DNA from: Planoprotostelium fungivorum
Taxonomy: Eukaryota > Evosea > Variosea > Cavosteliida > Cavosteliaceae
Reading direction: 5' to 3'
DNA: 45,073 nt
Assembly (NCBI GenBank): GCA_003024175.1
Contig: MDYQ01000272.1
Span: 1-45,073, forward strand
In this document: in pieces, positions 4 to 44,929 of the stretch
Layout: each line of letters begins with the position of its first letter
Position numbering within the stretch: the stretch's first letter is position 1
The notes under the pieces: model-generated
Told to the model about the DNA's origin: nothing
The model's database searches: none
What the model saw: only the letters and a program-made list of their open reading frames with translations
Position numbers and translations under genes: made by a program

Positions 4-1891
4 GAGAGACTTCAATGGATCGAAACAATCAAGAGGACCATAGCTCGACACAAGAGACGTATGCTTGACTTGTCGTATCTGCAGAAGGTGACATGGTCAT
101 TCACCTGCTCTTCGAATGACACCGTCTTGAAGTTCAAGAACAGAACGCCAGTCGTGGTCCTCGTTCAATCTCTCTGGCGTAGGAGAAAAGCATGTCAGCA
201 CATCGCACAGCTACACAAAGTTTATTCACGCAGGAAGAAGATCGCGAATGAGATCCTCACGACAGAACAATCTTACGTCGGCTCACTTCAATTGTTGGTA
301 GAGGTGAATCATCATGTTCATCATTCAGAATGTTGATCACGATCATGTGGTGTGATGTGATGATGAAACATGAAAAAAACTGAGCATCGAATCAGGTCTA
401 CGTGAATCCTTTACGCAAGAAGAGCCCATCCATACTATCACCCGAAGACATCAACCTCATCTTCTCCACCATATCCGAATTGGCCGAGCTGCACGAAGTA
501 TTATTGACACGTCTCCAACAAAGAATGGAGAATTGGTATCCACGACAACGGATCGGACAATTATTCTGCGACAAGGTGAGGGAGATGAAAGGAAACGAAC
601 TCAATCGCCAAGGAATTCCTGTTCAAATTGAAGATGTACTGCTCTCAGTATGTATCCAACTATCAGCAGTCCCTCGCTGCGTTAGTCAGATTAGAAGGAG
701 AGAACGAAAACTTTTCGAATTTTCTTGAAGTGAGTTGACATACAACCTCCTCGTCCCTTGTATGAGAGGAAAAATCGAAGAATGATCGGTTACAATTCGT
801 TGAAATTTGACGCGGGAGACAGGCTCTGCTTAACGATCCTCGTTGTAGATCACTGACTCTGAACGATCTACTGATCATGCCCGTACAACGAATTCCTCGC
901 TACGAACTCCTCTTGAAGGTGAATATGAAATCTCATCGAAATTTCGCTCGCTCAACCGATCAGGACCTCATGCGTTTCACTTCACAAGAAGATGATGATT
1001 ATCCCGATTTAGACAACGCCGCACGCGAATTCAAGGACATCAACTCGTTCACCAACACGCGAACGCAAGAGGCCAACACGGTCAGGAGACTGAGAAACGT
1101 TCAACACAAAGTGAGAAGGGTCAGCATAAAAGAAGCACTACTCCAACCAGGTGATGATGATCAGATGATGATCATCGTGATGCGATCGCGATCGTCACGA
1201 TGAACGATCGGACGTGTCGACTGATGACTTCTTCAGGTAGAACCCTGGTGAGGGAAGGATTTCTCGTTTATTCTTCAAAGAAGAGAGACAAGATGATGTA
1301 TGGATTTCTCTTCGCAGACTGTCTCTACCTATCGAAGAAGACAGACAAGAAGAACGTCTCTCACCGTTACGACTTCAAGGTGAAATTGTCTGCATCTCAC
1401 TCGTATTCATCTCGTTCAGGAAGTCATCCCTTTAGAAGGGGCATCCGTACAAGACATCACTTCTACCCCCATACCATCCTACCGTACGTACCGTACGTAC
1501 ACTGATACCCGACTGACCCTCTCAGCGGAAGCTTCTTCACCCCCTCTACGTAAATCGAGCGCAACGTCGATGAAAAGTCCAGTTCAGAGCACTCGCTCGG
1601 TGGTAGAAAAGTTCAAACTGAGTAAGAGCTCGCCGGAAAATAGCAAAATATTCTCCGCCAGCACGGGCTCCCTCTTCAAACTGGCTAACAAGAACACACC
1701 GCGTGAGTTTTTATCGTGGAGTGATCACGTGACACACATCAGAGAAGGAATACCCCCATGCGTTCTCCATCGCATGCGTTCGCGATGGCGTCAGCATCAC
1801 CTTCACTTTTAAAGTGGAGAAGAGTAACGAGAAGAAGGGCTGGGTGAATGCCATCAATAAGGCCATACGTGATCTGATGGAGGAGATATAA
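4..1891 (+). CDS. RhoGEF (IQ-DH-PH), 5' part missing
   Basis: This is the 3' part of a Dbl-family guanine nucleotide exchange factor for Rho/Rac GTPases. The window opens with TAG, read as the 3' end of an intron, after which the frame is open, so earlier exons lie outside. The order is an IQ-like basic helix (VVLVQSLWRRRKA), then the DH domain starting at KKIANEILTTEQSYVGSL and running through NDLLIMPVQRIPRYELLLK, which is the most diagnostic DH segment, then a PH domain (GRTLVREGFLVYSSKKRDK, YGFLFADCLYLSKK) whose last helix is KGWVNAINKAIRDL. Introns fall at about 303-397, 584-650, 729-820, 919-960, 1152-1235, 1379-1420 and 1705-1747; the fourth DH exon starts near 821 in phase 0. The stop is TAA at 1889. 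The PH domain carries a Ser/Thr-rich insert before its last strands. The architecture resembles the second RhoGEF at the other end of the window. The family call is firm; the GTPase target cannot be told. Confidence 0.88.
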
Positions 1892-2464
1892 AGATGTAAA
1901 GAATAGCGGTCGGTGTGTCGTTGCAAGGTCTTCGCATGAGATCGTGTTCTGGGAAGAAATTCCGTTTTTCTTCGGCGTTTCAGTGGAAGGAGAGAGTCAC
2001 AGCGTCCACGTTCTCTCATCTCAGAGATTGAGAAGGGACATAAGGTTCACTGCGCGGGGTCGAGTAAGGTTCTAAAGAGTGTCTGTGTGTGCTTCCACGT
2101 CGGGGTGTGAGGCTTGAAATAATTCGAAATTGACAGTCACAGGTTTTGTTTGAAAGCCCGCGGAGAAATGGATACACGCCGGTACTTTGATGCATTGCTC
2201 GCCTCTTCCTCTTCGTCTCTCTACGTATTTACGTGAACGGCTGCTATTCTCAGATGAGAATCTATAGAGGATGCATCACCTCGTTCTGTGGAGGTGCATC
2301 GAGAAGTCTTGGATTGTCATCTATAGATATAGAATACTATGGCGACCGTGCGGGGAACTGTCAGATGGAATGGATCGCCCGCGGCAGAGTATGAGGTTGC
2401 ATAAATATTGTACGTGACAACAACAGGAATGCAGACGGCACACAATCAGGAGAGGAGAGGCAGC
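1892..2464. other. intergenic region, no gene seen
   Basis: The 570-nt gap between the RhoGEF stop and the zinc-finger start has no convincing reading frame. It contains an imperfect inverted repeat around 2262-2330, in which GATGCATCACCTC is followed by GAGGTGCATC and both are flanked by copies of ATCTATAGA. This could fold as a hairpin in the 3' UTR of the upstream gene or in the promoter of the downstream one. Confidence 0.4.
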
Positions 2465-4239: not shown

Positions 4240-4371
4240 GTCTACAATTCTCACGGTCCATCTGTAACCAAAAACAGTACAGCTGACACAGAATAAACTA
4301 TACACATCTATCTCCTGCAAGCATCATCTCGAACACATCATCACAATGAGAATGCACGATCTTCTCCATCA

Positions 4372-6457
4372 TCACGCGAGGTTTTTATTCCTATAGATGA
4401 CGTAATCTCCATACACGTTCTTCTTCTTCGACACTACAGGTACCCAGAAGGCCCTCAGAAGTGGATGAGAGTGCGATGCGATGAGAAACTTCTCTCGAAA
4501 GACAGCTGTGAAGGGGTGTCCCTCCGAGAACCAAACCTCTTCCACATCAGGCAGCTCTAAATCTACGAAATAATGACAATCCTTCCAAGCGTCCACCTAT
4601 TTCCGTCACTACAACGAGCCGTCTCATTCAAATGAAACGCCTCACGTAACGCTCCGTCTCTTCGCGGTTCATGTCGTTGAAATGTGGCGGGAAACCGTGG
4701 GTGGAATATGTCTCGTTGTAGAGAGCCGGAAGTTGACCTCCGAACCCCGATCGGACGAATCGGAGGGTGTGGTTGGGTGGCACAAAGAAATGAGACGGAA
4801 AGCGGTACCACTCCTTTGCGACGCAGACGTTGACGGCCGTTGAGGTGTTCGCCGTGGGGAGAGATTCAAATTTTGAATACAGGAAGAATGGCGCGGAATA
4901 ATTGACGCCGTTGCTGATGAGATGAGTGGGAGGAAGAGGAAGACGTTCACCTGACGATGCGAGAGACCGACAATAAAACGAATAAAATGAGGAATAAATT
5001 CTTCAAAACTCCGACGATCTTGGAGAACGTCACGACCTGCCGTCTTCAGTTCATCTACACCGTTGTAGATCCTCACTTTTCCTGAAAATCCCAATTTTCT
5101 CAGAATAACGGTTGAAGCCTCGATCGAACATTGGATGGTGATGGAAGATGTCAGACAGACCAATGGATAGATAACAAAGAGGAACCTCTCTTCTTTGTGG
5201 GCCATACGAAGCATGACTGCCATCCAGATGTAAAATGGCAGAGTGTAGATGCACTTATTCAATCGGAAATTTCCCAGAGACATCTTCGACGTGATCGCTA
5301 GGACCTGTTCGAAATTCAAATTCCGTTCGATGGCGGGAAATCACCGGTAGAGATAGGAAAGCGAGGGGGAAGAGGAGATTGAAGTTGAGGAAGCCGTTGA
5401 TGACGTAAAACGTCCAAGGTTCAACTCCGTACAGGTCCGCACCGTGCGGAGTGAAGACGTTGTAGAGGATGATGTTGAGGGGTGGAACGATCCATTTGCG
5501 GTAGAAGTGGTAATCTACAACGAGCCCGGGCCCCTGGTACAATGTGAGTACTTCCTCGTTAAGATGACGGTGACGACGATGATGATGATGATGTCATTGT
5601 CTTGAAGATGATGATCGTGAGAGCCCACCAATAAGAAGGGAAGAGATGCCGCAGCAGAGAAGAGAGTCTTGAAGAAGCCAAGAGAATAGATGGCATCCAA
5701 GGCGATGGGTAGAGCTAGCACGAGACAGAAGGGCCAACCCAGGAGGGTGGCGGCGGCGACTGAGATGACTGCCATGGAGAGGTCTCTGGTCATCCAGAAT
5801 GAGATGGCAAGTGTGGTGAAACACATGGAAAAGGAGGAAGGGAGGAAAGCTGTGACACGTGTGAGATGATCATGTTTCAAGATGTGATTGTGATACGATG
5901 TGAGGTTATGACGAGACGCCTATGACTCGATCGGGGTGATGTGATGTGATCTGATTTTGTGGTGGAAGATGGATCTAAGTGAGAGGTATCACATGTGGAG
6001 GCGTTGAACATTCCGGGGCTGAATGAGAGGAACAAGAGCGTCAAAGCACCCACATTGGGACCGAATGTAGCGGCGGTAGATCTGACAAATTTGTATTCGC
6101 AAAGGGCAGAGAAGAGGCCGAGGCAAGCTCTCACTCCAAAGAAAGCCACAATCTGATGGAAACGGTCAGTATCTCGATCAAGACACTCGCACGTCTCAAG
6201 ATCACCTTATTTCCTGTCAAGATGATGAAGAGCTTGGCAAGCATGGCGTGTAGACCAATGTATGAGTATGATCTTAACCCAAATTCAGGGCTATACTCCC
6301 ACGTCTGTAATCCTTTTCCAGTGAGGAGGTAGTGTGTTGGTTCCCAGTAATTCATAACCTCATCACAATCTGATAACGTGTTGAAGTTGAGCAGGGTCGA
6401 TAAAAGTCGAGCGACGACCAAGGTGAAGAAGGCATATCGTAACACTGCCTCAACCAT
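4372..6457 (-). CDS. ALG9: ALG9-type alpha-1,2-mannosyltransferase
   Basis: This is a GT22-family multi-pass ER membrane enzyme that adds alpha-1,2-linked mannoses from dolichol-phosphate mannose to the lipid-linked N-glycan precursor in the ER lumen. The N-terminus carries the family signature SDCDEVMNYWEPTHYL, then TWEYSPEFGLRSYSYIGLHA, which matches ALG9 more closely than the other GT22 members PIG-B and ALG12. A later exon has HKEERFLFVIYPL, the conserved luminal motif of the family. The C-terminal part includes DCHYFVDLELPDVEE and NVYGDYVIYRNKNL. There are at least six exons with short introns. The one near 5514 has its acceptor formed by CGTTGTAG, and the one near 4590-4637 contains the same motif internally. 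ATG is at 6457 (MVEAVLRYAFF) and the stop at 4372. The acidic unknown gene follows on the same strand about 130 nt downstream. Confidence 0.92.
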
Positions 6458-10512: not shown

Positions 10513-13500
10513 ATGGGGCAACAAGTCAGTGCTCTCGAACAGGTACCCATTGACATCATTTGAGATGTCGTGTTTGACTAATGTAAGCCCATCTTGGGTC
10601 ATCGCTCTGCTAAACGTGTGGCTCAAACGATGATCTGCTGTCTATTGTCTGACGCCATCTACCATCACGCCGAAGAGGGCGCTACGTCCTTCACTGACGC
10701 GCTTCACAACCTCCAAATCACATACTCATGGTTCGACGTATGTCAAATCATCTCGATACATATCGATTGCTGTCGACGATGATATCATCATCCCAGACAT
10801 CTTCTCGCCAATTGAACACCTTCTCAGGTTTATGGATATCAATTATCGTGTCCAGGATTTCCATACCCATTCGCTGTCGTGGAGATGGAGGACTTTTTCG
10901 TCCTCACAGTGGCGGGAACCCATCGAGTCGAAGATTGGCTCACCAATCTCGACTTTGATTCCATCATCTCTGGCCATCTCAATCTACACAGAGGTGACCT
11001 CTCTCACCATCATCACTCTCAACGTCATCCATTTCTCTTCATAGACAATCCTTCATTACCCCGAACTCTTCTCTGATGTCCCTCGCTCGTAGCTTGTCCA
11101 TCACCGATGTCCCATCATCTCATCATTTGATCATCTCATGTCGATGTAAAAAATTGACGGGAACAGGTTTCGAGCTCGCAGCTCGTCACATCCCCATCCT
11201 CGATGTCTACGCCGCAGCCACGAGCAAGAAGAAGGAGCTCATCGTGTGCGGCCACTCTAGAGGTGGCGCCATCGCACAGCTTTTGAATTTTCAATTGCTG
11301 AACCGCGGCCACCACTCCACCTGCTTCACTTTCGCATCGCCCGTTGTGGGATGTCCCAATTGGTCGAACGAGGTGCGAGTGTGAGACTTTTTGGGACGTT
11401 GACCGTGGCTCGTTGTAGATCAAGAGATTGGACCCTGATGGCAAGTACTTCTTCCATTACGTCAACGCATATGATCCAGTTCCATTTCTGTTGACTCATT
11501 TTGGGTCAAATTATTCTTCTGCTGGCACTGTCATTCTATTCAAGAGAGGTGATTTGCATCGTACTCACTCTTTTCTGATGAAATTTCATCTGAATCTCAA
11601 CTGATCAATCGATAGGGGGTAACGAGGGAGAGAAAAGTAAGGATGGTGAGATTTTTATTGAATTTATTTCCTCACAAAATCAAATTTGACAAATTTTTTG
11701 TGACATAGACAGAATTTCGCACACTCTCTGCAGACGATTTCAAATCAGAAGGAACGAAATTATTCGGTTCACACGATTCGGTCTTGAACATTCACCGTTA
11801 CATCGAAGGCCACAAGATGTCAAACTACAACAAGTGCATCCTGTCTGCTGGCGGACCACTACAGCTTCCTTACCGTCACAATACCTCGTCTGATACGGCT
11901 AACAACTTCAGTAGCAACGAATACGTAGTGCCTCCCATCCTACCTCCCGAGGTGAAATTTCTATGAAATTTCTGTGAATTTCGTTCGAATTCTCGTAGAA
12001 TATCGGTGGAGAATTCTCCACGGCCAAGCACGTGAGGTTCTATCTGAAAGGAGAGAACCTTTCATCCATCACCATCCTCAACTTTGCCTTCAACACCATG
12101 AACGGAAGACAGATACTACACGAGGTACCTCCCTCCCTCATTCTACATCATTTCTACCTCTACAACGAACCACTCATCCATCTACAACGCACGCATATTC
12201 TCGTTTTTATCATCTACAACGCACCATATCACGAAGAGTGATAGAATGACAAATGAAAAGGTGTTACCTGTGTCGAAGAGTAGCATTCAAGTCATCTCTG
12301 ACTTGGACTTGGACGATGAAGCTTACAAACCCGATTTCTCCATCTCCATCTGCAATGGCTTTTCCACGAAAACGATCGCGGGCAAATTGCCCTTCCAGCA
12401 GGTCATGCTTTTGGGACAGACCGGCGCGGGAAAATCACATCTCAAAGTGTGTAATCGAAATTTCGTGGATATTTACGAGGTCAGGCCGTGTTAGAAATGA
12501 TGGAGAAGGGTCAATCGTTACCCACCACCCCCTGCAGCATCGCCAGAACAATTCCGATGGATCACACGCCGGAAGAGATGATATCGTACGGCGACCGCAT
12601 CGTGTACAGAGAGTGGATCGGTGAGATGTCGTGAGATCGAGCGTTGTAGATTGACGGATTTAGGACTGACGAGGTATTCGAACGACGAGATACAGGCCAT
12701 TTGGGACAACGTGGAGGCGAACACGCCGGTGGTGATGATCGCAGTCATCAATCTCAGTACTGTTGTGAGTGTGATATCATCATTCACATCATCACATCAT
12801 CACATCATCACATCATCACATCATCACATCACCACACCACACCCATCGTGACGTATCTCATCACATCACATCACATCACATCATCACCACACGACACAAA
12901 CGCATCACCGGTCTTCAACTCAACTTCGGATAGGTATCATCAGAGGACATGTTCGAAATGTTGAACAAGATCAATTTCCAGAAAGAGACTCTCGTGGAGG
13001 GACAAGTACAAAAGTATCCGGTCGTACTCTACGCCCTGACGAACCCGTATTCAGTTCCTCGTTCGAAGAGAGAGATCACCGTCACAGAGTTTGGTAAACT
13101 CATCTCGAAACACGATCCGACGGCTATAGAGCAAGATCGTGTGTTCAAGTGAGATCCATCGCATCATCTCATCACGATCATCGACTTCGACTCGTGATCG
13201 ACCAGTCATCATACACGTATTCTTCATACAGGATGATGATCATCATGATGTCGATGTGATGCTGATGATGAACAGATTGAACACCGACCCGTACGAATTA
13301 GAAGACGGCAGATACGTACCCATAGAAGGTATTCCAGAGTTCCACCACAGAGTTCGATCCACACTCGATGAATTCTACTCCAACGGCAACTGCAGCATAC
13401 GTCCAGTGAGGACGGTGGTACTCAAAGGTATCGGCCAGTGGATTCTACAACGAGTCAACGACCCGAAAGTCATCGCTGGCGTCTTCGCCTTGCTGTCCAA

Positions 13501-18167: not shown

Positions 18168-18386
18168 ATAGATTTCATGTACATATGTATGTGTTTCTCT
18201 TCAGTGTCATGAACGCGATCATCGAGATCAGTCTCACGCCTGTTTTTGGGTTTCGTTCGTTCACGTGATGATGACAAAGACTTGGTCAATGTGTGTAAAT
18301 ACGCATTCTATGGGGTGACCAGAAGCCGACAGATTTCGTTGTAGAAGAGTTAAAAGATTTCTGTGACAACCACATCTCGAGAACAC

Positions 18387-24886: not shown

Positions 24887-27800
24887 TCATATATTGAACG
24901 GAGCGACCAACCTCACGATGTCCATGAGGACCTCCGGATTCCTCACGCAGGTCTCCTTCACACACCTTCCTTCGCAGAACTGCTCGATCACGCCTGTCCT
25001 CAGAAATACGTCGATCTGTTTCTGTGCCTCCGGTTCTCTGTTTTTTCTCATCAGCTCTCCATCTCTTCCACATCATCATCATCACCTCCTGACGCACTCG
25101 TGCGTGTCTGTTTCGGCGGGGATGGGCTCGATGATAGACAGTGGTTGTATCGTGTCCGTGTAGTCCCACTCGACGAAGCCGTTTCCTGAATCTTCAGTCT
25201 ACAACGAGACTTCTTCTCACCGGTAAAGGGAGCTTTTCGGCTCTGAATTCCCGGGACTTTCTGTGTCTCTGGTGTGATGAGAGATGCATTCAACGATCGA
25301 CTCAAAAGTTCGGCAGCTACAACGGCGACTCGAGCGTCACCGATGCCGGCTGATGATCTCATCAGACGTGGTCGGTTGTGGTGGACGCTCACCGTGGACC
25401 AGGACTTGTTTGCCTCCAGCCATATCGTGTACCCAGCCTCCCGTTTCGACTGGATCGAAGAAAGTTTGAACGAGAGAGAGGATGAGACGGATTTCCCGCC
25501 AAGAATAAAATTCGAGGTGGAAGAGGGCCTGGTAGAACGTCAGCGTTGTAGATGGAGATTTCCAGGAATTTTCACCTTGAAGGGGAGGAAGAGGAAGGAA
25601 CGAGTGAGGAGGAGAGTGAAGGGAGTGCCTGGAACACCTAATACACCTCTCTGGAAGTCTTTCGATAGACCTGCCGCACGTCAGCGTCTCGTCTACAACG
25701 CTACAGTGATGACGTCATCGTGATGAATTGTGACGTAACTCACCCATGTAAGCACCACCCACGATGCCTCCGAACGAATTTCCATAAAATCCTCTCTGTT
25801 CACCCACCACGACCACGTCTACAACGAGTCAAATCAGGATTTCGTCGAAATTTCACCTCCGTCGCCCAGCATGGATGGATGTTGGATGAAAGATGAATTG
25901 GCCAGACATCTCATGACACTCACACCGTTCATGAAAGATTGAGCCACATAATCAGGGGAAGAGATGAGGGCTGCTCATCGTCATCACTTTCGTCATGACA
26001 TCACACAAGATTTCCACGACATCACGTCTGATGTCATCTACATGATATCACGTGAGATATCATACCTTCAGGATGAGACAGAGCGTCGTGGACGATCTGA
26101 AGCAGATCGAATTTTCCAAATCCATACCAATCCTGCGACACCAAAATCCAACGGTGGCGATTGGCGGGAATCGTCACGTAATGGTACAACGCTTCCGTCC
26201 TGTCACCTGAAATTTCGTCGGTATTTCTCCATCACGATCCGTTACCAAAGAGTCCGTGACCGTACTGCATGACGAAGGAGGGAGAGGGGTCTTGTATGAT
26301 GGAGCACGGAATGAATACGATGAAGGGTACGTTGATGAACCCATTCATGGTGGCGTTGAGAGAGTGGTCTTGCGTGTGAACTCGATGGAGGACGGAACCT
26401 CTGCGGCATTCTTCGGCGTAGCAGGGGGCCTTCAGGGATACTGAGAGAGTGAGAAGGAGGAGATTTGTGAGATGATGAGGATGATGATCAGATGATGATG
26501 AGGATGATGATCAGATGATGATGAGGATGATGATCAGATGATGTTGAGGATGATGATCAGATGATGATGAGAATGATGATCAGATGATGATGAGGATGAT
26601 GATCAGATGATGATGAGGATGATGATCAGATGATGTTGAGGATGATGATCAGATGATGTTGAGGATGATGATCAGATGATGTTGAGGATGATGATCAGAT
26701 GATGTTGAGGAGGATGTCGTTGACGATATGTATGGCGGATAAAGTCTGTGGAAATGATGAATTGTAGACGAAGCTTACCCCAGACGATCCTTCCCGCCGT
26801 TTCGGAACCAGGAATACATTTCTCCTCGTTCACCTACCCCCTTCAGATTCTTCCCCGAATCTTCCATCTACAACGACCCACCTGAGTGATCTTCCACTCC
26901 AGGCCGTGATTTTCGACGTGTCGTAACAGATCGTCTCTCATCCATTGTAGACCACCCAGACTCGATTTCCTGGAAATGGTGACGTAATCCCAAGCGATCT
27001 GTACTTCGGAGATCTTCCATCCCTGACTCTCGATGGCGGGAAAAACGAAATTGGCATAATGCTGGAAGGATCAGTCTCGTTGTAGATGAACGAAATGTCT
27101 CGTTGTAGATGGACGAACCTGTTGTCTCTCCGTGAGATCGGAGAATTGTAGTTCGCTTCGTTTGTAACGTTCGTAGGCTGAGGCTAATTTCCTGAAGCCC
27201 TCGGTCGCTGGAGCTACTTCTCCATCACTCTTCACGAGACCTCTGACCGCCACGATATACCTGCCCGTCTCAGTCTCAAAGTCTCGAGATTTTTCCCGGA
27301 ACGGAGACGATTCCTCGGAAGACGTGCGTCACCTGGTGCTGTGGTGCAGGGGTATAGATGGTTGAATGATGATACTGGGCTCGTTTAGATCGAATCGATC
27401 CATTTCCAACCAGTGAGGATGTCTCTTGAATGTCTTTGATTCCAGTACGACAGTCTTCACGTCTTCTCCCTCGTAATCCTCCAATGTACTCAGAGATAAA
27501 CCACCTGCCGCGTTGTAGATCGAGATTTCGCGGAGATTTCACCTTCGACTTCGGTGACACCTTGCAGGTGGAAGAGGGTGGGGCCGATGGTGGAGAAACC
27601 ATCCGCTCGATTTAGAATAGTAGGATCGATGTGCTTGTGTGAGTGTTTCAATTTAGGCAGAGAGTGACTCTTCAAGTCGATTCGATATCCCGTCTCAGTC
27701 GTGTTATCCTCCCTGTTTCACGTCAGAATTTTCGCAGGAAAATTCACGGAAAACACGAATACCTGAGAAATTTCGAGGAAGGGTAGGGGTAAGCACAGAG

Positions 27801-30211: not shown

Positions 30212-32890
30212 TTATTGTCGATTCAGTTTCAAGTCGAAGTAGAGTTCGTCCATCACTTCTTCCTCCATCTTCGATTTGAGATAATGTCTGAAGGTGCCCG
30301 ATCTCCTCTTGTTCTTCTTCTTCTCCTCCTCTCCATCCATGATCCTGTCTCCGTCTCATCTTCAAGCATGACAACGTCTCTACTCACCACAAGATGGCCG
30401 AATGATAATCCAAGGCGACTTCAGGGAGCAGACCGCAGTGGGGTGGAACTACCGTTCCCGCCCTTTCTCTCCTCCCCCTCTTTCTCACCCTCCCACTGCT
30501 ACGTTCAGTCCACTATGTCTGCGTTCGCACCCACTCTGTGTTCTTCTCAGACATGTCTTCTGAGGAAGTGTAGATGCATCTGTGGGCCACGGACCCATTC
30601 GGCACGATCGTCTGGCGCATGCTGGACAGTGACAAGTGTGTGCACATCTGTCGTTGTAGACGAGAGTCGCTCTCGTTCCAGGAATCAAACGGAGACGGAT
30701 GAGTCATGGTGTGGCAGTCTCCAGAGGGGTCGTTCGTAGGTTCCAAGACATCGACGAGGGAGAGCAGCTCGGCGTGAGCCGATAGATCTCTCAACTCGGC
30801 CGAAACTCTGTGTCGAACTTCTCTATTCATCTGATTGGGTGGTCCCTTGTAGCTCTCTTCGAACTTCTCCGATTTAATCTATTTTATTCAGTCATTTTCA
30901 CATCGACAGGAGACACGTTGTTTTCATTCGATGTCTCACCTTCAGATAATTTGTAAAGGCAACGTCGAGTTGGAAGAAAGAGAGAGTGTCTTCTAATCTC
31001 TCGTCTCCGTCTCTGATCTTGCCCCACACGTCGTATTCTTCTCCCTCATACAGACCGTAGATGACAGACATCGGATCCACCACGAACTGCGGGTGATATC
31101 GATGCTGCAGCCAGAATTGTGCCGTGTTCAGCAGAGACCTCGCATCATCCCCCAGCGTAGAACTCAACCGACAGATCTCCCTCTTCGCTGCGGCACATTC
31201 GATCGTCTACAACGAGTCACTTTCGATGGAGTGGGGGCTCACCGTGGAAGTATGGGTGGGCTGAGGGAGGTAACCTCTTCGGATGTAGAGGGAGGATAAG
31301 AAGTCGGAGAGTTGGCTCTGAGAGAGATCGTTCGTGTGGATCTCTCTCAGCTTGTCCACTTCTTCTCGATTGCATTCTGTCACTAACTTGGATACGTCCA
31401 CGTTGTAGTCTGAAGTCCTTCAACTTCTATTTTCTCTCTATTTTCTATTTCTATATTTTCTATTTCTCTATTTTCTATTTCTTTATTTTCTATTTCTTTA
31501 TTCTATCTTCTATTCTATCTTATATTCTCTCTATTTCATATGAATAGACTCACGATCAGCTGTACAGATGATGGGTACCCTCGTTCTCTTGATGAGATCA
31601 CACATCGATTGAACAAAACTCTTCTCGTCTCTCGAACACGTGTCCACGTCTTCAAACAGGATCACCGTAGTCCTCTCCTCTGATGCTCTCGTTTGTTGTG
31701 ATTTGTCTTCACCTTCTGATTGTGATGCTCTGTCGTGACTTAATACAGATTGTGATCGTGTGGCCTCTTCGATCTGCAATCCGTGTCATTCAGATTCTGG
31801 ATGATGATGACGATGATGCTGATGATGGTGTTGATGTGATCGTGCGTGGTATGAGATGACCTCGATGTGATCGATGGAAGTTTTGTGTGATGATGGATGA
31901 TGGAAGATGAGAGAAAGGCAGTCACCTGCTGGAGGTGGCGTGATGTGCGATGATCGGAGCCGTTGACTTCGATGATGTCACAGTGATATGCCTCACAGCA
32001 TGCCTCTATCTACACCTTCGTTACACTCCACGTGATGTCATCAGTGCGATCGTGATAGCTCACCGTGGCTGTCTTTGCTGCAGCATGAGAACCGATCAGC
32101 AAGATGGCGGGTGGAACATCGTTCGTTCTGTTTCCTTTCCATGCAGCCAGCCATCGACAGATGTACTAATGACATCCATCAAAATGAGGTGTAGACACAT
32201 GATAGATCTCACCTCGATCACCTTCCCTCCATCTTGTCCTCTCAGCAGCAATTCTGGATGATGAGGTCGATAACGATTCGTCCATAAGGTACCCTCTGCC
32301 TCTCTCTCGGTGCAATCATCCACCCAATCGAAGAATGAATCACTCAGACTCAGCTGCAGAGGCCTCACGACGTCGGCCGTGCGAGACCCAACGGGTGGAT
32401 TGGGTGTCTGTAAGATGGGTTTTGACCTCTGATGGTGGGTGTCTCGACGGAGAAGTGAAGAGGGTATCGAATCATGTTTGGATGATGGGGTGGGTTTCGA
32501 TTTCGTCCGGGCTGGAGGGTAATGGAAGGGTGGCTGATCATCAGATGGCTCGACATCTTCCACCTCTACCGGATGTTGGGTCACATTGACGGGAAGTGGA
32601 AATTGAGGGCATTCAATTGTATCCCATATCTTCGGTAGAACTGGTGAGGTCGTCCCGTCCAGAGTTCCATTCCCATTGTGAGATATCTTCTGCAATTTGA
32701 AGAAAGGATGATCAATCCGACCGACATTTCTGGCTCTGTCCTCCATCTTATCCCTCTCAATCTTCCTCTTTAGCTCTGCATTGCGATCTTTGATGATGTT
32801 CTCGGCTGTCTTCTTAGAACCTGCTGACCCATCACTATTCTCCTTCTTACTGACCGTGACGAATCCCAGGAGTGTGCCTTTGGTCGGCAT
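30212..32890 (-). CDS. ATAD5: ATAD5/ELG1-like RFC subunit (PCNA unloader)
   Basis: ELG1/ATAD5 is the large subunit of a replication-factor-C-like complex that removes PCNA from DNA after replication. The N-terminus (MPTKGTLLGFVTVSKKENSD) is disordered and charged, with a short HPFFKLQ motif. The AAA+ region starts LWTNRYRPHHPELLL. The Walker A position reads ILLIGSHAAAKTAT, then FEVNGSDHRTSRHLQQ. The Walker B is VILFEDVDTCSRDEKSF, followed by LIKRTRVPIICTADRESIHM. The lid and collar follow (QLSDFLSSLYIRRGYLPQ, NTAQFWLQHRYHPQF, SAELRDLSAHAELLSLVDVL). The end RSGTFRHYLKSKMEEEVMDE resembles the ATAD5 C-terminus. Stop TAA at 30212. The frame of one exon near 30513-30700 is less certain. In Walker A the second Gly is replaced by Ala, unlike active clamp loaders. 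An intron at about 31427-31535 is a T-rich repeat. Confidence 0.83.
31427..31535. repeat. intronic TTTTCTATTTC low-complexity repeat
   Basis: About ten degenerate copies of TTTTCTATTTC(T) lie in an intron of the ELG1-like gene. On the coding (minus) strand this is an A/G-rich tract, so it is not a polypyrimidine splice signal. Confidence 0.8.
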
Positions 32891-34148
32891 GGCGCCGATG
32901 CCTCTATTTCAAAATTCAACCGTGCGAACCACTACAACGTCTTGCTTTTCTATCAAAGCGAGAGGTCTGTTCAAGTGTTCCACCTATCTCTTAGTCAGAT
33001 GATACTATGGACGAAAAATAGCTATCACACCGTAGACTGGACAGAATTGGAGTCTGGAAAGTGTGAGATGGGATGGAAGGATGAAGATGCAATGGTACTG
33101 CTTCCAGTTTCTCGATGAGAGCAATGAGATGAGCGGAAGCGATTTATTGTATTCAGAGACAAGTTTTATAAGACGAAAGAGTTGAACGTGCGATCACGCA
33201 AAATTTGTGAAAACTAGTTTTAATGTTTTTATTCTTCTGTTCAGCCTGCGCCTTCTCACGCGCAGGTCTGCCATCTCCTCTCTGATCTCTCCTCACCGAC
33301 GTTCATTTGCTGAGGGAGAGAATGTGAATGTGGACGTTGGGTCTTGTGTAATGGTGTCTACATTATGAGCTCTCCTGAGCTCACAGTTTCTATGTACGTG
33401 ACGGATTCTGCACACTCGTGAAGAAAAGAGGACACACATCAGTCATCAGATACCGCGTAACTTTCTAAAACATTCTTTCACATTAGAAGTGTCTTGCCGC
33501 AAGATGGTGTCCTGGTACCTGTAAGAAAGTCAGTTACAACCGACCGAAACGTAATGGTTACCCTGAGGCTCATCGCAGGGCAGGATAGACTCGAGCGTCT
33601 CAGTCTGCTGTCCTCCCCTCAATTAGAGTTCGAAAACAGCTCGACCTCGACGTCTCTGTCCCCCTCCCAAACTTCGTGCGATGTCCTCGTTCTCATAGAA
33701 GGGCTGCTCTCTCTTGTCGATCTTCCTCGTTATGCTACAGAAGCCCGCCGAATCATAGGGCGTTCCTCTTCACAGAAATCTCATCTGATTCCAAGTTTCC
33801 TTTGACTTTTCGCGTTCTCACACGGTGAGGGGGCGTAAGGTTTCATCAAAGGATAAAAATTGAAGTTCAGGTGAGAAAATCATCACAGAGTCAAGAAGAA
33901 GCAGAGAACGAGAGGCAGAACGAATACTAAAGGTTCTCAAAGAAGACTGCGCAAACGAGAAAGCAAGAAATTTCTCAGGCTTCTGTTGTCAGTTCCAGGA
34001 TAAACCAGGGTCTAAACCTAAACCTCTTCTGGTTCTGAGATTGAAGGTGATGAGGATTAGACCCTCTCCTGATCCGACCGATGATCGAACCTCTGACACG
34101 TCAACTCACATCAGAGCGTAGAGAAGATACATCCATTCGAAAATACAT
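32891..34148. other. 1.26-kb region without a confident gene
   Basis: This is the longest gap in the window. A 104-codon frame at 33494-33805 (+) starts MPQDGVLVPVRKSVTTDRN and is Ser/Leu/Arg-rich without a recognisable domain; I give it little weight. There are two perfect short hairpins: CCTGCGC with an 8-nt loop and GCGCAGG at 33245-33266, and TGAGCTC-TCCT-GAGCTCA at 33366-33383. Between them CTCTCCTCA and TGAGGGAGAG can also pair. A 12-bp palindrome AAAACTAGTTTT lies near 33213. These may mark a structured RNA or be coincidence. Confidence 0.4.
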
Positions 34149-36280: not shown

Positions 36281-36764
36281 GGCAGTGTGGTGTCGCACGA
36301 GTTGGTGTTGCTGTCACTTCCGATAGTCCCCGACTCGTCTGACCGGTCTGACTGGAGTTTTCTTTGGGGCTTCGGGTTGTTTACGGCTTGTCCGCCTATC
36401 GTTCTCTCAGGTGCCAACGCGATACTTTCAGAAGCTTAACTCTCGAGAAGGTGTTATCATTATTTATGGACTTGGTGCATTGTTGGGATGACAAAGAAGC
36501 GGCAGCGTCTTCGGCTGTACAGCAGAGTTGATGTAGTTACAACTGGCCAGTCGATTTCATCTACAACGTTGTAGACGTACAATGCTGGTCATTGATCTCA
36601 GTACATGTTTCGCAACGCGAGGTGCAGGGCTGCTGTGTTGTGGGAGGCTCATTCATTTGCTCCTCGTGTTGCTGTGATCAAAGGCCTCGGAAACCGGAAA
36701 AATAGGGTACCGGAAGATTCCGCACGATGACATCAAACACAGCAATCCAGAACATCGTCACATC
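36281..36764. promoter_or_regulatory. divergent promoter region with 16-bp palindrome
   Basis: This 484-nt space lies between the starts of the MFS gene (leftward) and the NTF2-like gene (rightward). No frame looks coding. It contains a perfect palindrome TCTACAACGTTGTAGA at 36560-36575, two back-to-back copies of the dispersed motif. Confidence 0.5.
36560..36575. repeat. palindrome TCTACAACGTTGTAGA, copy 1
   Basis: A perfect 16-bp inverted repeat built from two half-sites of the dispersed CTACAACG motif overlapping at CG. The same 16 bp recur at 37694-37709. Symmetry suggests a dimeric DNA-binding protein or a joined pair of element ends. Confidence 0.8.
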
Positions 36765-37509: not shown

Positions 37510-39186
37510 TTATTCTCTTCCAGTAGACACGTGATGTTGTCTGAGCTGCGTGTCCGCTCCTCCACTGAGGATATCCGAAACGTCCTTCTCGTTGTTCTGA
37601 ACCGACCAAACTGCAGCGAGGACCTTGTCCTTGTGCTCTTTGATCGTGTACAGAGGATAGCTCGATCGAAAGTCCCACACCTACCACCGTCAATCTACAA
37701 CGTTGTAGACGCCGCCCACCTTGACCGTCTGATCTAATCCAGACGTGACAAAGTAGTTCTCTCGTGTTGGATGCCACTGCACCGAGCTCACTGGTCCCTT
37801 GTGTGACGTGAACTGTGGTCCTGAAGGATGTCAGCCCTTCTATCACTCCGTCCATCTACAACGAGCCTCACCCTGATTCTCGTCGCCTCGCGTGTCGCAG
37901 CTCTTGATCTTGGCGTCGACGTGTGCAGTCAAAAACATTCTGTGTCTTCCACTGTAGCTCACACCGTTGATACTCGTGTTCAAATTCTTCAATTGGGCCT
38001 GTCGTTACCCCTCAGTCCATCTACAACGCGCCATTTTCACCTGCAGTCCACTCTCTACGTTCCACACACGGAGGGTGTGGTCCCAAGAGACAGAAGCGAT
38101 CTCCTCTTCAGAATACCAAGTCAAATCGCTGACGCAGTTGGTGTGGCCGACTATCTTTGAACGAGGTCCATTGGCCTCCGTGGTGGTCTTCCTCCTCTTC
38201 TCACCCTTCATGGAGCCTCCAGCTCCACTGGGAGAGACTCTCCACAACATGATGGAGCTGTGGGTCCTGTCAGTCCGAGTGGGTCGATCGCGTCCTCACT
38301 TGTCCCAGGAGCCAGAGGCGAAATCGAGGCTGCCCTCGAATTTCTTGCCCAGTTGTAGACTGGCTGGCGACACGTCAACACACTGTACTGCCGCAGAGTG
38401 TCCCTTGCAGTGATGTGGGTTGATGATCTGTTTGTCTGACACGTTGACGTTCCACGTACGAAGACTACCGTCACGCGATGCGGAGACGAAACCGATGACA
38501 TCGTCGACCTCATTGAAGATGGTGATCTTTGTGATGCCGTCGGTGTGACCGGTGCAGGTGAGGACGGCTGAATCGGTGGGAAGGACGGAATCTTTCGTGG
38601 TGGGCATGTCCCAAACGCGGATGACTTTATCGTAGCTGCCTGATAGTAATTGCCTAATGTGATGATTAGAAGATGTGATAGATGATGAGATATGAGATAG
38701 AATATGTGAGAGGGAGAGAACAATGGTGGGTTTGATGTCTTTGAAGGACGAATGGGATCACCTCTTTGTCGCCAGAGCTGCAATAGAAGAAATCCAATCG
38801 GGATGCTCGTATGTGGCTGTGTGTTCGGGTGGCTTGAGTGCCTCTACGTACTCGATCGTGATGAGATCTTCCGTTGAAAGTTCTTTTTCCTTCAGAAAGG
38901 CCTCCAAAGTATCTCTGAGAAACTCATCGTTCACAATAAATTCGAATGGACGAGGGGAATCTGAAAATCATCATGAGGTGATCACATACATCACCCGAAG
39001 ATCTCGAGTAATCCTTCACAAGACGAAGCTCTCACCAGAGTTTAAGAGATGATTGATGACACCAGAGAGACCATATCGACCTAATTTGAGTGGGACACGG
39101 AACGGTTTGTCGGTGACGGTCAGGGCAGGTTCTAACTTTGTGATGAAGCGAACTTCTATCGTCTCATTCTCGTCTACTCCTTCCAT
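37510..39186 (-). CDS. WDR12: WDR12/YTM1 ribosome biogenesis protein
   Basis: YTM1/WDR12 is part of the PeBoW (Nop7-Erb1-Ytm1) complex that matures the large ribosomal subunit in the nucleolus. ATG at 39186 (MEGVDENETIEVRFITKL) is preferred because upstream codons in this frame have only GTG starts. The N-terminal ubiquitin-like NLE domain follows (KPFRVPLKLGRYGLSGVINH, FEFIVNDEFLRDTLEAFLKE, STEDLITIEYVEAL). Seven WD40 blades come next: HPDWISSIAA, LTCTGHTDGITKITIF, GFVSASRDGSLRTWNV, GHTNCVSDLTWYSEEEIASV, SWDHTLRVWNVESGLQ, SGLDQTVKVWDFRSSYPLYT, DILSGGADTQLRQHHVST. At least three introns contain CGTTGTAG; the one between TVKV and WDF (about 37687-37725) holds the whole 16-bp palindrome. The stop is TAA at 37510. 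Confidence 0.92.
37694..37709. repeat. palindrome TCTACAACGTTGTAGA, copy 2
   Basis: This is the second perfect copy of the 16-bp palindrome, inside a short intron of the WDR12 gene. It differs in context from copy 1: only the palindrome and the following A-C are shared, so the two are not part of a longer duplicated segment. Confidence 0.8.
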
Positions 39187-39338
39187 CTTGAGATCTGTGC
39201 AATCCTCTTCCGTTCTCCTTTTCTTCCGGCTCGTTGTAGTTACGAAGTTGATTTTCGGTGTTTTGTGCACAAAAACAATGGACTAAGGAAGCTTGTGTGA
39301 GCGATGATGGAAGTTGATCATCTTTCAATCAACAGGCT

Positions 39339-42300
39339 TTATACCGTCATGTGTTTCCCGCTTGTCTCCACGAGCGATCGAACCGAATCAACCCATCTCC
39401 GTGCCTCTTCACCAGATCCTGCACTCAGCACGTAATTATCCGTCTTCGTGTGGATCTGAAACCATCCTTCCAGCCCCGGTAGCTCTCTCGCCGATGCTCC
39501 CGCCACCTCTAATTGCGTCGTCGTCTATTCATCGCCATCAGATGGTTTCTCGTTCGACACGATGATGATGATGAAAGACGTGCGATCGATGAGATCTCAC
39601 GTTATCAGCCGAAACGATGCTCATCGTCTGTTTCGTGATGATCAGTGTGCACTCGATTTCTGACTGGTTCATCTTTCGTTTCAGCTTGCCTTCTCTCTCG
39701 TAGTCTTTCATGATGGGCCTCTGCGACATATCTTTGAAGCTGTTTCTACGTGCCGAGCTGCTACCTCCACTGTATTTCTCCAGAATCCAAGCGTTCTTCG
39801 TGGCACTGATCATCGTGAGATAAACTCGAACACGTACGTAGATATAGAGGACACGATGATGAGCTCATGATCATCTCACTATGAATCTCTCTCCGTCGGT
39901 TTCTTCAGGTATTCCGGCATGTCATTCTCGTACAATTCGTTGGCCTTTCGATTGTCGATGTTCCTCGCACTCTGCAATGCATTGACGTCCCACGAGCCAA
40001 ATTGTGTCGATTTGATCTTCTCTCCGTCAGTCTCTCTCCGTGTCATCCTCTCACCTTCGCCCTTCCCAATCGTCTGTGAATGCCCGAACAGTCCGTACAG
40101 ATGAGAACGCCCATTGTGATGTTGATCCACTGTGGATCTTTTGTACCGCAATCTGCGCAGTGCCAATTGCTCGCATTGTCCCTCAATCGATTCAGCACGT
40201 CCTGTTCACGTTGAGATCTCGAATGTGTGATGATGTGTGATGATGTGATGATGTGTGATGATGTGTGATGATGTGATGATGTGTGATGATGTGTGATGAT
40301 GTGTGATGATGTGATGATGTGTGATGACGTGTGATGAGGTCACTCACCCCGATCGATTCTTCTGAAGAGGACGTTGTTGATGAATAAGAGACGACCGAAT
40401 TCGAACGAGAGTGGTTGGGTGTACCCTTTGGTGTTCCCACGTCGAGTACGTTCATCTGATCCGTCACCACCTGTAAAAAATGAGGGAGGGAAAAGGACTC
40501 GAAACCTCACCCCTCGGATGAGATTCATCCACTGGTAGAGGAGAGTGTGGCTGGGTGCAGATAAGAAGTAGATGCAAGATGAAGTGCCCAATTGAAAGGA
40601 GAACTCTCTGTCTAAAATGCACAACTTTGCGATGCAATTGCACAAGATGGGGATGACCTTCTTCACCTTACCCGCCCTCGCATCATCTTTGGATCTACCA
40701 TCACCTGAGTCGATGACGTCACGATTCGCCACACCTGCACAGGTACAGCCGTTGGTCCTTTAAGACGAAAAAGTTTCTCTTCCAAGATGAAGAACGGAGG
40801 TGGAGTTCTCCTTCAAATGTGGGACGATTGAGATCGATTCGGCTGTCTGTACTGTAAGCTGCGCCAGATTCTTTCAACTTGGGATCGTCTGGAGAGGTCA
40901 GGGGAGGGAGGAGAGAGGACGTTACCTTGTCTAGAGATGAGCTGTTCGAATAATTGGGACACGGCATCGTCGATTTGGTCCATCCACGAGATCATCTGAG
41001 TCAAGTGAATCTATGATTCATTTGTGATGGTGATACATCGAGCACGATGATTTGAAGTGAGAATTACAATCGAGGGGTTGAATGTTGGTGAGATTTGATG
41101 ATTGAAATCTGGGTACTCACTTCATCGTTCGTTGTAGTGCGGAAGATATACTTTTTCGCGCCCGAAATCTCAAATTGAAATCCTTTCACAGATTCAATTT
41201 TTCCGATCGGCTGACGTCTCACCTTCTGTCGTGGGAACCTTCTCCGTCAGGTCGTGGAGCTGGCACAAATGGAGGGGAATGGTGAATAAATACTTGAAAG
41301 TCAAACCGAGAGAGCCGAGATCTCCCTCTTCGACGGTCGCATTCGCAGGTTGTCGAGCGGAGGTTGGACTGTTCCTACAGTATCGTCAGGAAAAAAGGCG
41401 GGAGATTTGAATTTCGAACACGCACGCCGATGCCAGTAGATTGGTGATGGACTGTCTCTTCCAGCGAGTCGTCTTCGGTTTCGCCTTCGTGCAGACTAAA
41501 ATGTCGTTGAACAGGAAACAGAAGCGTAATTTCGGCGTCTACAACGATCAGCTGATGACGTCACGTGACGTCACACCTTCTCCACCATCTGTGTGAGATA
41601 ACCTCTGCGGATGTACCTCCGGTGAGGTGCACACAAATTGTCAAATTTTCCAGTCAAATTCGAAGCCACGTGAAAGACCTCGACAAAGTGAGTTTTCACC
41701 GAGTTTTCATCGAGTTCTCCGTGACATCTCACCTGGTTGAGGTTCTCTGCTTCTCTCTTGCGGTCGTTTACGTAACCAGCGACTTGTTTCATCTTCTCTA
41801 ATGCTCTGGCGATGTCGTTGTAGTCACCGTGACGAGGTGGTGTGTGTTGAAGCAACTCTTGAAGGAGGAGAACGTACCTGCGCCACGTAAGCGCGGGACA
41901 TTTGAATTTCAAAAGTATCAGTACCTGGGTATACGTTGGATGGGTTTGATGAGGAAGCTGGAGAGGTCCAACAGCTCGCACTCTGGAACGTTGAATTTCG
42001 TTTTTTCGAGAAAAGTCGCAAATTTAGAATTCTTCGCGCACTCTCTCATCGTCTCGAACGCCTTCGGATAATTGTTCACGTAAACCGTGTACACCTGCAC
42101 CTCCCTCTCAGTCTCAATCGTTCGATCTCAATCGTCCACTCATAAGACACAACACGTGCACTCCGGTGAGACACACAGAGACCTCTTCACCTTCAGAAAC
42201 TCGGCTAGTCCCAAAAAAATGTCCCCCAACTTCGTCTCTACGTTGTTGTTCCATTTCGACAGCCTCTCCTTCACTTTCTGTGATATGAGACTGTTGTAGT

Positions 42301-44929
42301 TCTTGATGACTTCGACTTGTGAGAAGATAATCTTCACGTCTGATGCCTTGCACAGATCGGGTGACTTACGCAGGGGCTCCAGCCAGAACTGTCGACGTCA
42401 AAATTCGATGAATTCTATGCGAGTTTTCACCTTCACGGTCACGTCGAGGTGGTTGACGTAAGCTGCCTCTGAATCACGAATTTCCTTTGCAATTTCGTTC
42501 CTCCTTCGGTCACGGGCTGTGTGAAGTTGAGTATCTACAACGAACGAATTCTCTGCGAGTTTTCTAGGGAATTTCGGAGAATCATCACACCTGCGTTCTT
42601 CATCTTCAGTTTACGTAAGAAGCTTCGGATGATACACTGCATCGTCACGATCTTTCTCAGATCTAATACGGGTGCCAACGTTTGGCTCGTTGTAGAGGGG
42701 GTTACTGTGTCTTGAGTTTTCGGTGGAATTTCTGTGGCTGCGGGTGGTGGGGAGATTTCGATGGTAGGTGTCGTTGTAGATGACACTCCTGAACTCTCTT
42801 CCTTCCTCTCTGGTGATACCTCTGCCTTCTCTTCTTTCTCCTCTCCTTCTTTCTCTCCCTTCTCTTGCTGTTCCTCTCCATCTTCTCTCTTCTCCTCTGT
42901 CTTCTCTTGTATTCCTCCTCTCTCCTCTTCTTTCACCGTTTCCACTTGTCTCTCCTCACTTCTTCCTTCTTTCTGCCCCCCCTCACTCTTTTCCTCCTTC
43001 TCTTCCTCTCTCAGCTCCTCCGTCTTCTCCTTCTCTTCTTCCTTCTCCACCCTCTTCTCTTCCTCTTTCAGCTCCTCCGTCTTCTCCTTCTCTTCTTCCT
43101 TCTCCACCCTCTTCTCTTCCTCTTTCTCCTGCGGTGCAGTCTCTCTTCTCTCTTCCTCCACAATCTCTACGTCTTCCACTCTGAATGTGCTCTCTTCCCT
43201 CTGTTCGATTGCAGGTTCGAATGACTCTTCCACCTTCTCCCTTCCAATTGAAGTGAGCTCTACGTCTTCCTCCTTGCTTATGAAATGTTGTGCGGTCTCT
43301 CTCTTGTCATCCAGGTAGGTGGATGTTGGATTGTCATCTGTGTTTGATCCCTCCTTCTCTTCTTTCTTCCCCTCCTCTATCTTCTGCTCTTCCTTCTCCT
43401 CTATCTTCTGCTCTTGCTTCTCTTCCACGTGTTTCTCTTGCACTTGTTCCTCCTTCTCTACTGGATGCATAACAGTCTCTTCCCTCGGTGTGGAAACATT
43501 CGTCGCGTCAAAATTTTGCATGTCATCTTCTCCTTCTTTAGGTGTGACATTCTCTGAAGATATCGTCTTCTCTTCGCTCGTCTCTGTTCTCTCACTCTCT
43601 TCTGTCTTCTCTTCGCTCGTTTCTGTCCTCTCACTGTCTTCTGTCTTCTCTTCCTCGGGTGATTCTCTCGGAGTTGTGGGTTCATTTCTCTCACGTTTCT
43701 CCTCTTTCTTCTTGGCCTGAAGACAATTGGATCTCATTGTTCGTGATGATTATGACGATGGATGATCAAGGGTGATGATGTGTGACGATGATGACAATCT
43801 ATGATGGTGAGCACACCTCTCTCGAGGATGGAGATATGATGGATAAGAATAGTCCAGGAATTTTCCCAGTCGACTTCTTGTGTGGAACTTTCTCTGGACT
43901 CGCGCTGACTTCCTTGTGGCTCGTTGTAGATGCAGTCTCCGCCGCCAACGCCGAAGCCGTCCTCTTTGCCCTCACCTATAAGATTCTCATTCGAATGAAA
44001 TCCTTCCCAGACCTTCCCACCTGCAGGACATCCTGACGTGTGACGTAACCTGTCTGAGGTCTGCTGCTGACTTGAATTTGATCTTTCTTAAACTGTGCGG
44101 CAATCTCCGAGGGAGCAAAGAGGTGACGCTTGGAGGGTGACTGTCGTCATCGAGTGAGAAGGTTTCATCCGAATGAAACGGCGCATTGCAATGCGACTCA
44201 CCATGGGGTCATTCTTGACGAATTGGTTCTCCTCGAGTTTTCCACTGTTGACGGAGAAGTAGACGGATTTGGGTCGGCTACGGTTGGATGTTCTGGGGCT
44301 AGGTGGTAGCTCCTCATCTTCCTCATCGCTGCTACCTACATCATGATCAACTGGATGTTCTATAGACGATGAGCACCTGTGTAGACTTTGGGGCCAGTCG
44401 GGTCGTCTGCCATCTCGAACTCGATGCCCAAGGATTTACATTTTTGGATGATCAGCCACACCATGCCGAGGATCTAGGCACGTTTAGATGAAGAAGACAG
44501 AGAAGGGCATCAAAGAAACTCACTTGACGCGTATTGCCTTCCACGATGGCATTGGGATACAGACCTGATGTCTTAATGTCCATCTGAGTCTCCATAAATT
44601 GCAGGGCCACGGAGATATTGTCGATCTTGTGGCTAATGAACTTTGGATTCTTCGTGTATCGAGTGATGCTCTTTCCCGATACGACTTCCAGCAGCTGAAT
44701 GAACATCAATCCGTCACAGAGGTCAGTCTGTATATCGACGATGCCAAGATTTCTTTTCGAAAGCTGAGCGTTGATCCATGCCGAAAATCTCTGTCAATCA
44801 ATCAGATCGAATCATCGTCTGAATTTGGATGGGTGGTTATTTCATGGGAATTAGCAGTGTTCGTGTCGTCTAATGGAGTGTCTGTCTCACCTCGCTTTGG
44901 ATGTTGTTCCATCTTTCAGAGCCACTCAT
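39339..44929 (-). CDS. CH-IQ-RhoGEF-PH-PH-ArfGAP-PH signalling protein
   Basis: A very large gene whose product should link actin, Rho and Arf signalling. MSGSERWNNIQSE at 44929, then a calponin-homology domain: RFSAWINAQLSKRNLGIVDI, DGLMFIQLLEVVSGKSITRY, NISVALQFMETQM. A Glu/Lys-rich exon (42.7-43.7 kb, about 300 residues) is followed by an IQ motif (IVTMQCIIRSFLRKLKMK). The DH domain has EIAKEIRDSEAAYVNHLDVT and LDLSSFLIKPIQRIPRYVLL. The first PH follows (IRRGYLTQMVEK, CLFNDILVCTKAK), then a second PH (FEGELHLRSSSWKRNFFVLK). The ArfGAP zinc finger is WHCADCGTKDPQWINITMG, VLICTDCSGIHRRLG (C-x2-C-x16-C-x2-C, with the arginine). A C-terminal PH ends ARRWVDSVRSL and GKHMTV at TAA 39339. From memory, Dictyostelium GxcDD has a similar CH-IQ-RhoGEF/PH-ArfGAP order. 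Exons at 43.8-44.4 kb are only partly resolved. Confidence 0.85.
40215..40336. repeat. intronic GTGATGAT microsatellite
   Basis: About fourteen alternating units of GTGATGAT and GTGTGATGAT fill an intron just upstream, in coding sense, of the ArfGAP zinc-finger exon. The same kind of (G)ATGATG-rich simple sequence occurs in introns at 12.8 and 26.5 kb. Confidence 0.85.

Follow-up and report, generated by a model that had tools for sequence, protein, structure and literature searches.

The highly iterated palindrome HIP1 (GCGATCGC) is found at 300-2700 copies per Mb in most cyanobacteria, with observed/expected (O/E) ratios of 55-228 in most cyanobacteria outside one group, according to one study (PMC4390886). 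The same study describes the highly iterated palindromes (HIPs) as palindromic and, except for one supplementary sequence, at least 75% GC, HIP1 and its replacements as 75-100% GC, one-off variants of HIP1 as common, and matching methyltransferases as generally present (PMC4390886). Here we analysed the word CTACAACG (reverse complement CGTTGTAG) in a 45,073-bp contig of the protist Planoprotostelium fungivorum (MDYQ01000272.1, assembly GCA_003024175.1), which is referred to as the window over its full length, and compared it with HIP1 and other dispersed words. Like HIP1, the strict 8-mer occurs near once per kb and far above dinucleotide expectation, and its density of ~910 per Mb, which comes from one window only, lies within that HIP1 range. 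Its O/E of ~30 by base composition is under the usual HIP1 values and like those of weaker HIP1 genomes, and reaches 54 by dinucleotides. Unlike HIP1 as described there, the word is a half-palindrome of 50% GC with an excess of one-off variants that is weak at most, and it is found in an intron-bearing eukaryote, where it is clustered and densest in introns. A sequence-only reading of the window had likened the word to HIP1 and to uptake sequences; the likeness holds for density and dispersal and fails for palindromy and GC content.

Three further kinds of dispersed word share some of these features. Sites of general regulatory factors and other eukaryotic DNA-binding proteins resemble CTACAACG in orientation independence, flank preferences, fixed-offset dyads and co-occurring sites, whereas CTACAACG lies mostly in gene bodies, including exons, and has an unusually strict core. 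The DNA uptake sequences and uptake signal sequences (DUS/USS) are likewise short words dispersed in both orientations, but they are bacterial and the host of CTACAACG is a eukaryote. Introner elements and intronic splicing enhancers are short sequences that recur in many introns; in contrast, CTACAACG is also present in exons and spacers, with neither a strand preference nor a long shared sequence.

When exact matches are counted on either strand of the whole window (45,073 bp), the scope of all counts given here unless stated otherwise, CTACAACG occurs 41 times at 39 loci, two of which are overlapping inverted pairs. Base composition predicts 1.37 copies, Markov models of order 1-2, 3 and 4 predict 0.64-0.80, 2.0 and 4.4 copies respectively, and models of order 1-5 with the sites masked predict 0.6-1.4. 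The excess is therefore ~30-fold over base composition and ~54-fold over dinucleotides, with 100 dinucleotide shuffles giving a mean of 0.76 copies and a maximum of 3. Control words made of the same letters (n = 1,119) have a mean count of 1.3 and a maximum of 11, and in a z-score ranking of 8-mers CTACAACG is first under Markov orders 2, 3 and 4. Models of order 5 and 6 predict 15.7 and 34.9 copies, a comparison that is circular in so short a window because CTACAACG itself supplies the 6- and 7-mers. Some copies are not independent of each other: those at 27078 and 27101 lie within one 23-bp tandem duplication, those at 36561 and 37695 have 19 nt in common, and those at 12182 and 12214 have 14 nt in common. 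The sequence-only reading had counted 38 starts and estimated an excess of about 28-fold over 1.4 expected copies, which the present figures confirm and show to be understated; most of its starts are correct, although 5458, 36567 and 37701 were missed and two were placed 2 nt off (37858 for 37856 and 42690 for 42688).

Gene models were made with a small gene finder that was self-trained on the window, and models of >60 aa were used for class counts while those of >90 aa were used for the start and gene-body tests. The 146 modelled introns are mostly tiny (89 of 30-59 nt, 74 of at most 48 nt), with 129 starting GTG and 64 GTGAG, and close to the acceptor a CTRAY-like branch site was noticed by eye and then incorporated into the gene model. 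Pfam matches in support of the models include Glyco_transf_22 over profile positions 2-414 of 414, RhoGEF over 11-180 of 180 together with ArfGap and PH, NLE plus WD40 repeats in one gene, and Lipase_3 in another (residues 61-184 of 329), while four of the nine modelled proteins submitted to Pfam had no match there. Junctions of three site-bearing introns fall within such matches, namely 5037-5076 (residue 350, inside Glyco_transf_22 at 9-424), 11373-11418 (residue 160, inside Lipase_3) and 37681-37719 (residue 383, inside a WD40 repeat), and those of introns 37821-37871 and 37999-38040 lie within beta-propeller matches below Pfam's own cut-off. One model contains a zero-length exon at 26833/26834, so that one of the introns counted belongs to a longer one.

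The models assign 20 of the 41 sites to introns, 13 to exons and 8 to non-coding spacers, in keeping with the earlier placement of the word in all three classes. This split includes three sites at 12160-12221 that the model calls exon and that were reassigned by hand to non-coding DNA, because the Lipase_3 match ends well before them and the ATG at 12246 directly follows; as modelled, the split is 16 exon, 20 intron and 5 spacer. The word is present in 18 of the 146 introns, where dinucleotide shuffling predicts 0.1 sites against the 20 observed, and the spacer sites fall in 8.1 kb of non-coding DNA. Density is 2.1 per kb in introns versus ~0.5 in exons (0.6 with the three doubtful sites taken as exon). 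Seven of the intron sites are in the sense and 13 in the antisense orientation, a mixture that argues for an element of double-stranded DNA and makes an RNA signal unlikely as the main cause.

The exon sites exceed what the encoded proteins and their codon use predict. Synonymous-codon shuffling of all models (1,000 runs) gave a mean of 1.43 exon sites and a maximum of 6 versus the 13 observed; broken down by frame, there are 2 sites versus 0.03 expected in the LQR frame, 4 versus 0.35 in STT-type frames, 4 versus 0.83 in the YN frame and 3 versus 0.20 in antisense frames. Of the codons involved, CTA and CGA in the LQR frame are seldom used in the models (8% of Leu and 17% of Arg, respectively), whereas TAC and AAC in the YN frame are frequent (67% and 62%). 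Among the 27 modelled proteins, both LQR tripeptides and the sole RCR/RCS are encoded by CTACAACG. The sequence-only reading had noted several frames (LYNE, STTS, LQR, RCR) and argued that protein constraint does not explain the word, and both points stand on this analysis.

The word extends into preferred flanks and, at some loci, into a symmetric pair. The base directly before the core is T at 33 of the 41 sites, A at 7, G at 1 and C at none, contrary to the pyrimidine (Y) proposed for this position in the earlier consensus; A is further preferred at -2 (22/41), C at -3 (24/41) and A directly after the core (24/41). Thirty-two pairs of sites at least 30 bp apart have at least 14 nt in common, versus 1.1 by a naive quarter-per-base estimate, a few of these pairs arising from the palindromes. 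This sharing points to a preferred site that extends past the core, roughly CATCTACAACGAGNC; beyond a few bases the flanks mostly diverge, and sites >30 bp apart have no continuous stretch of more than 19 nt in common. At 4 of the 39 loci the core is joined at offset 6 by an inverted second half (CTACAACG-TTGTAG). Two of these are perfect CTACAACGTTGTAG palindromes with two sites each, located in a divergent spacer (36561-36574) and in intron 37681-37719 of the NLE/WD40 gene (37695-37708), and two carry one mismatch in the inverted half, at 5055-5068 (site 5061-5068 on the minus strand with CTACAACGGTGTAG, intron 5037-5076) and at 19398-19411 (site 19398-19405 on the plus strand, intron 19374-19411). 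The full palindrome is formed at 36561 and 37695 alone, and every other offset or orientation of a second site within 45 bp was seen at one pair at most. Outside the sites there are 33 one-mismatch relatives, versus 19.8 (order 1) to 31.9 (order 3) expected with the sites masked, and 35 versus ~20 by dinucleotide shuffles, so any halo of variants around the word is weak at most.

Along the window the spacing of loci varies more than expected by chance (P 0.009, uncorrected), with the largest gap not exceptional (P 0.17). Eight of nine five-kb blocks contain the word, 20-25 kb having no site and 25-30 kb nine. Sites are present in 10 of the 25 gene models of >90 aa and absent from 15, the site-free genes including a 2.65-kb ferric-reductase-like gene with 12 introns (from a reductase match, its DOMON part being recognised by eye) and, from a weak MFS match, a transporter-like gene of 2.3 kb with 13 introns. 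The stretch from 0 to +400 of the 25 starts holds 1 site versus 8.6 expected by circular shift (P 0.003, uncorrected); two starts in this profile were set by hand, at 21985 and at 18370, the latter 17 nt from the actual ATG of that frame at 18387.

Two other words lie near the sites. The GGCGGGA core of a second strict word, TGGCGGGAA, is within 200 bp of CTACAACG in 8 of 12 occurrences versus 3.2 expected (P 0.004, uncorrected). The complete TGGCGGGAA, often followed by A, occurs seven times (4686, 5332, 10911, 13513, 25494, 26163 and 27035), six of them in exons versus 0.32 by synonymous shuffling (~18-fold). The word TGACGTCA occurs four times (25710, 40714, 41556 and 41566), always in modelled introns, and three of the four start within 27 bp of CTACAACG, two at one site, where they overlap as TGACGTCACGTGACGTCA next to CTACAACG at an intron end. 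We take GGCGGGA/TGGCGGGAA to be E2F-like and TGACGTCA to resemble a cAMP response element (CRE/ATF-like).

From these features we propose, with roughly even confidence for and against, that CTACAACG is the core of a site for an abundant sequence-specific protein on double-stranded DNA, arranged in intragenic modules. The putative protein would recognise the core within a preferred site of about CATCTACAACGAGNC, mostly at single copies and at times at a pair with two-fold symmetry about the CpG (CTACAACG-TTGTAG). Copies within exons and tiny introns, and those a short way upstream of certain start codons, may, together with the other regulator-like words, form small cis-regulatory or chromatin-organising modules inside a subset of genes, where candidate roles would be those of an enhancer, an intragenic promoter or a chromatin boundary. 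The existence of this protein and its binding are inferred from the window, as are any influence on transcription or chromatin and the extension of the same pattern to the rest of the genome.

Several observations weigh against this proposal. Ordinary binding sites usually tolerate mismatches, whereas the one-mismatch excess of CTACAACG is weak or absent. Most sites are outside promoters, 33 of the 41 lying in gene bodies (models >90 aa), all of them >390 bp past the start, and the peak from -100 to 0 of the 25 starts is weak (6 sites versus 2.1 by circular shift, P 0.03, uncorrected). A scarcity of the word in early introns, present in 1 of 35 that start within 400 bp of the gene start versus 17 of 111 later ones, is not significant (P 0.07). 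The site-rich genes 30421-32890 and 37510-39186 are each followed by a convergent gene when models <60 aa are left aside, which means that the sites in them do not serve the next gene as promoters; we rejected this role more generally since no such pattern appears in 200-bp profiles of the regions around starts and stops. As to neighbouring words, 14 of 781 control 7-mers of similar copy number match GGCGGGA in proximity to the sites, and some of these overlap CTACAACG or its flanks; CAGCATG, AATAAAA, CAATTGG, GTACGTA and TCTATAGA were tested for proximity and are not close, CACGTG and CAGCTG show no enrichment within 40 bp, and the proximity of GAAATTTC is only marginal.

The main rival is an iterated word of the HIP1 kind, in which a strict oligomer would be made and kept everywhere by genome maintenance (modification, repair or recombination) with no gene-specific regulatory meaning. 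We consider it unlikely, though it would account for a density inside the HIP1 range of PMC4390886 and for the presence of the word in every sequence class, exons too, and in nearly all five-kb blocks. It is opposed by the lack of palindromy, the 50% GC content and the at most weak enrichment of one-mismatch relatives, as well as by the clustering of the word and its scarcity at +0 to +400 of genes. CpG o/e is 0.95, and the CpG-decay variants CTACAATG and CTACAACA number only 4 (1.4 expected) and 2 (1.9 expected), which together give little sign of CpG methylation at the word and led us to reject methylation and decay as its explanation. A regional oddity, in which local duplication and gene conversion would have made the word common in this stretch of the genome alone, would fit the 23-bp tandem duplication that holds two sites, the 19 nt common to the perfect palindromes and the contrast between the empty 20-25 kb block and its rich neighbour; with sites spread over 10 of 25 gene models and flanks that mostly diverge beyond a few bases, we regard it as quite improbable.

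The high intron density, and the coincidence of the CGTTGTAG end with the modelled acceptor in four introns, speak for an element acting in RNA, such as a splicing signal or enhancer or a protein-binding site in pre-mRNA or mRNA. However, TAG ends 36 of the 146 modelled introns regardless of the word, intron sites run in both directions, and some spacer sites stand before start codons; mixed orientation and spacer sites led us to reject a splicing or RNA signal as the main cause, and we hold such an element very unlikely. A footprint of mobile DNA, whether the ends of tiny elements, introner-like insertions of introns or short filler repeatedly inserted at repaired breaks, is improbable to the same degree. 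The 18 word-bearing introns and the flanks that some sites have in common speak for it, but the 13 exon and 8 spacer sites do not, there is little halo of decayed copies, and a mobile element or introner was rejected because no long sequence is shared, 19 nt being the maximum between sites >30 bp apart, even though two sites belong to the tandem duplication. Constraint on the proteins or their codons (Tyr-Asn, Ser-Thr-Thr) draws some credit from the sense direction of 10 of the 13 exon sites and from the favoured TAC and AAC codons of the Tyr-Asn frame; it is refuted as the main cause by the synonymous shuffling, and since 28 sites are non-coding (25 without the hand reassignment) we give it next to no weight.

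A broader statement can be made tentatively, and we judge it more doubtful than not: the nuclear genome of this protist may carry a strict dispersed 8-bp word at HIP1-like density, in exons against synonymous expectation and in about one-eighth of introns, as a eukaryotic counterpart of an iterated word that is kept by a DNA-binding or genome-maintenance system inside gene bodies and avoids 5' ends. If the pattern is genome-wide, a compact protist genome would have a strict recognition word in its exons and tiny introns about once per kb, a DNA-level signal that can influence the choice of synonymous codons, and of a few amino acids too, in ordinary genes. The word itself could then serve directly as a probe in the search for its binding protein, and the purpose of iterated words such as HIP1 would become testable in a eukaryote.

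Searches for the word elsewhere gave the following picture. Three protein pieces searched against viral contigs and one spliced protein searched against genome contigs returned no relative, and whole-word and topic searches gave no description of CTACAACG or its extensions among the open-licence PubMed Central papers that they listed. The few papers returned for the 8-mer and its longer forms look unrelated, judged by title and the opening of the abstract. Two pattern scans of viral contigs yielded 24 loci, mostly with 2-6 copies of CTACAACG, a number partly demanded by the scan itself. One of them, IMG/VR contig 3300027714_000011 (L001), has 9 copies in 11 kb on one strand with all eight spacings multiples of 3, and these are probably repeated protein-coding sequence; another (L005) has 3 copies in 2.6 kb, also on one strand.

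The individual sites, as exact matches assigned by the window-trained models, are distributed as follows. Among the exon sites, that at 841-848 (minus strand) is antisense in the RhoGEF gene, where CGT TGT AGA encodes RCR. The Tyr-Asn frame is used at 4714-4721 (LYNE), 5458-5465 (LYNV; absent from the earlier list), 31401-31408 (HYNV) and 41816-41823 (DYND), all on the minus strand, and the minus-strand sites at 41130-41137 (RTTT), 42688-42695 (PSTTS), 42772-42779 (SSTTT) and 43922-43929 (ASTTS) use the STT-type frames. LQR is encoded at 13445-13452 (plus) and 30652-30659 (minus), and the remaining two exon sites, both on the plus strand, are antisense at 5515-5522 (LVVD) and 25317-25324 (AVVA).

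Intron sites on the plus strand are found at 4609-4616 (intron 4597-4645, in an Alg9-like mannosyltransferase gene), 25199-25206 (intron 25186-25220), 25693-25700 (intron 25671-25743, with TGACGTCA starting 17 bp off), 26868-26875 (model intron 26834-26881, really the 3' part of 26746-26881) and 42535-42542 (intron 42463-42590), and in the NLE/WD40 gene at 37856-37863 (intron 37821-37871) and 38021-38028 (intron 37999-38040). Four sites occupy the 3' end of their intron: 11411-11418 on the minus strand (intron 11373-11418 of the lipase gene) and, on the plus strand, 25819-25826 (intron 25819-25856), 31207-31214 (intron 31207-31242) and 41539-41546 (intron 41539-41732, where the two overlapping TGACGTCA start 17 and 27 bp off). 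Minus-strand intron sites are located at 12642-12649 (intron 12621-12663), 25544-25551 (intron 25529-25575), 27511-27518 (intron 27505-27542), and 27078-27085 and 27101-27108 (both in intron 27062-27118, each in one half of the 23-bp duplication).

Among the spacer sites, the plus-strand ones at 12160-12167, 12182-12189 and 12214-12221, modelled as exon and taken here as non-coding, are 78, 56 and 24 nt before ATG 12246, respectively. The site at 18337-18344 (minus) lies in the spacer before the open frame with ATG 18387, a putative F-box-like protein by eye. The site at 32932-32939 (plus) precedes by 41 nt the ATG at 32890 of a putative ATAD5-like gene that has an AAA match, and that at 39232-39239 (minus) is 45 nt before ATG 39186 of the NLE/WD40 gene (37510-39186), presumably WDR12-like.

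The window also contains other repeats and features. The palindrome GAAATTTC occurs 14 times versus 2.7 expected (Markov order 3), at 938, 11580, 11954, 11965, 12457, 14075, 25847, 26209, 27950, 35370 and four further positions, 10 of the 14 being in introns. No tRNA was found in the window by ARAGORN with the bacterial code, and no Rfam family at gathering score. At 26471-26716 a 23-bp unit, GATGATGAGGATGATGATCAGAT, is repeated in 10.7 copies with 97% matches; this array lies largely in the spacer preceding a minus-strand gene whose start is at 26348. Within longer introns there are tandem arrays of ATGTGTGATG and CATCATCA, at 40223-40337 and 12778-12887, and CATCATCA words are mostly intronic (40 of 51). 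The minus-strand gene at 39879-44929 has CH, RhoGEF, PH and ArfGAP matches and a long Glu/Lys-rich middle that is encoded by imperfect repeats.

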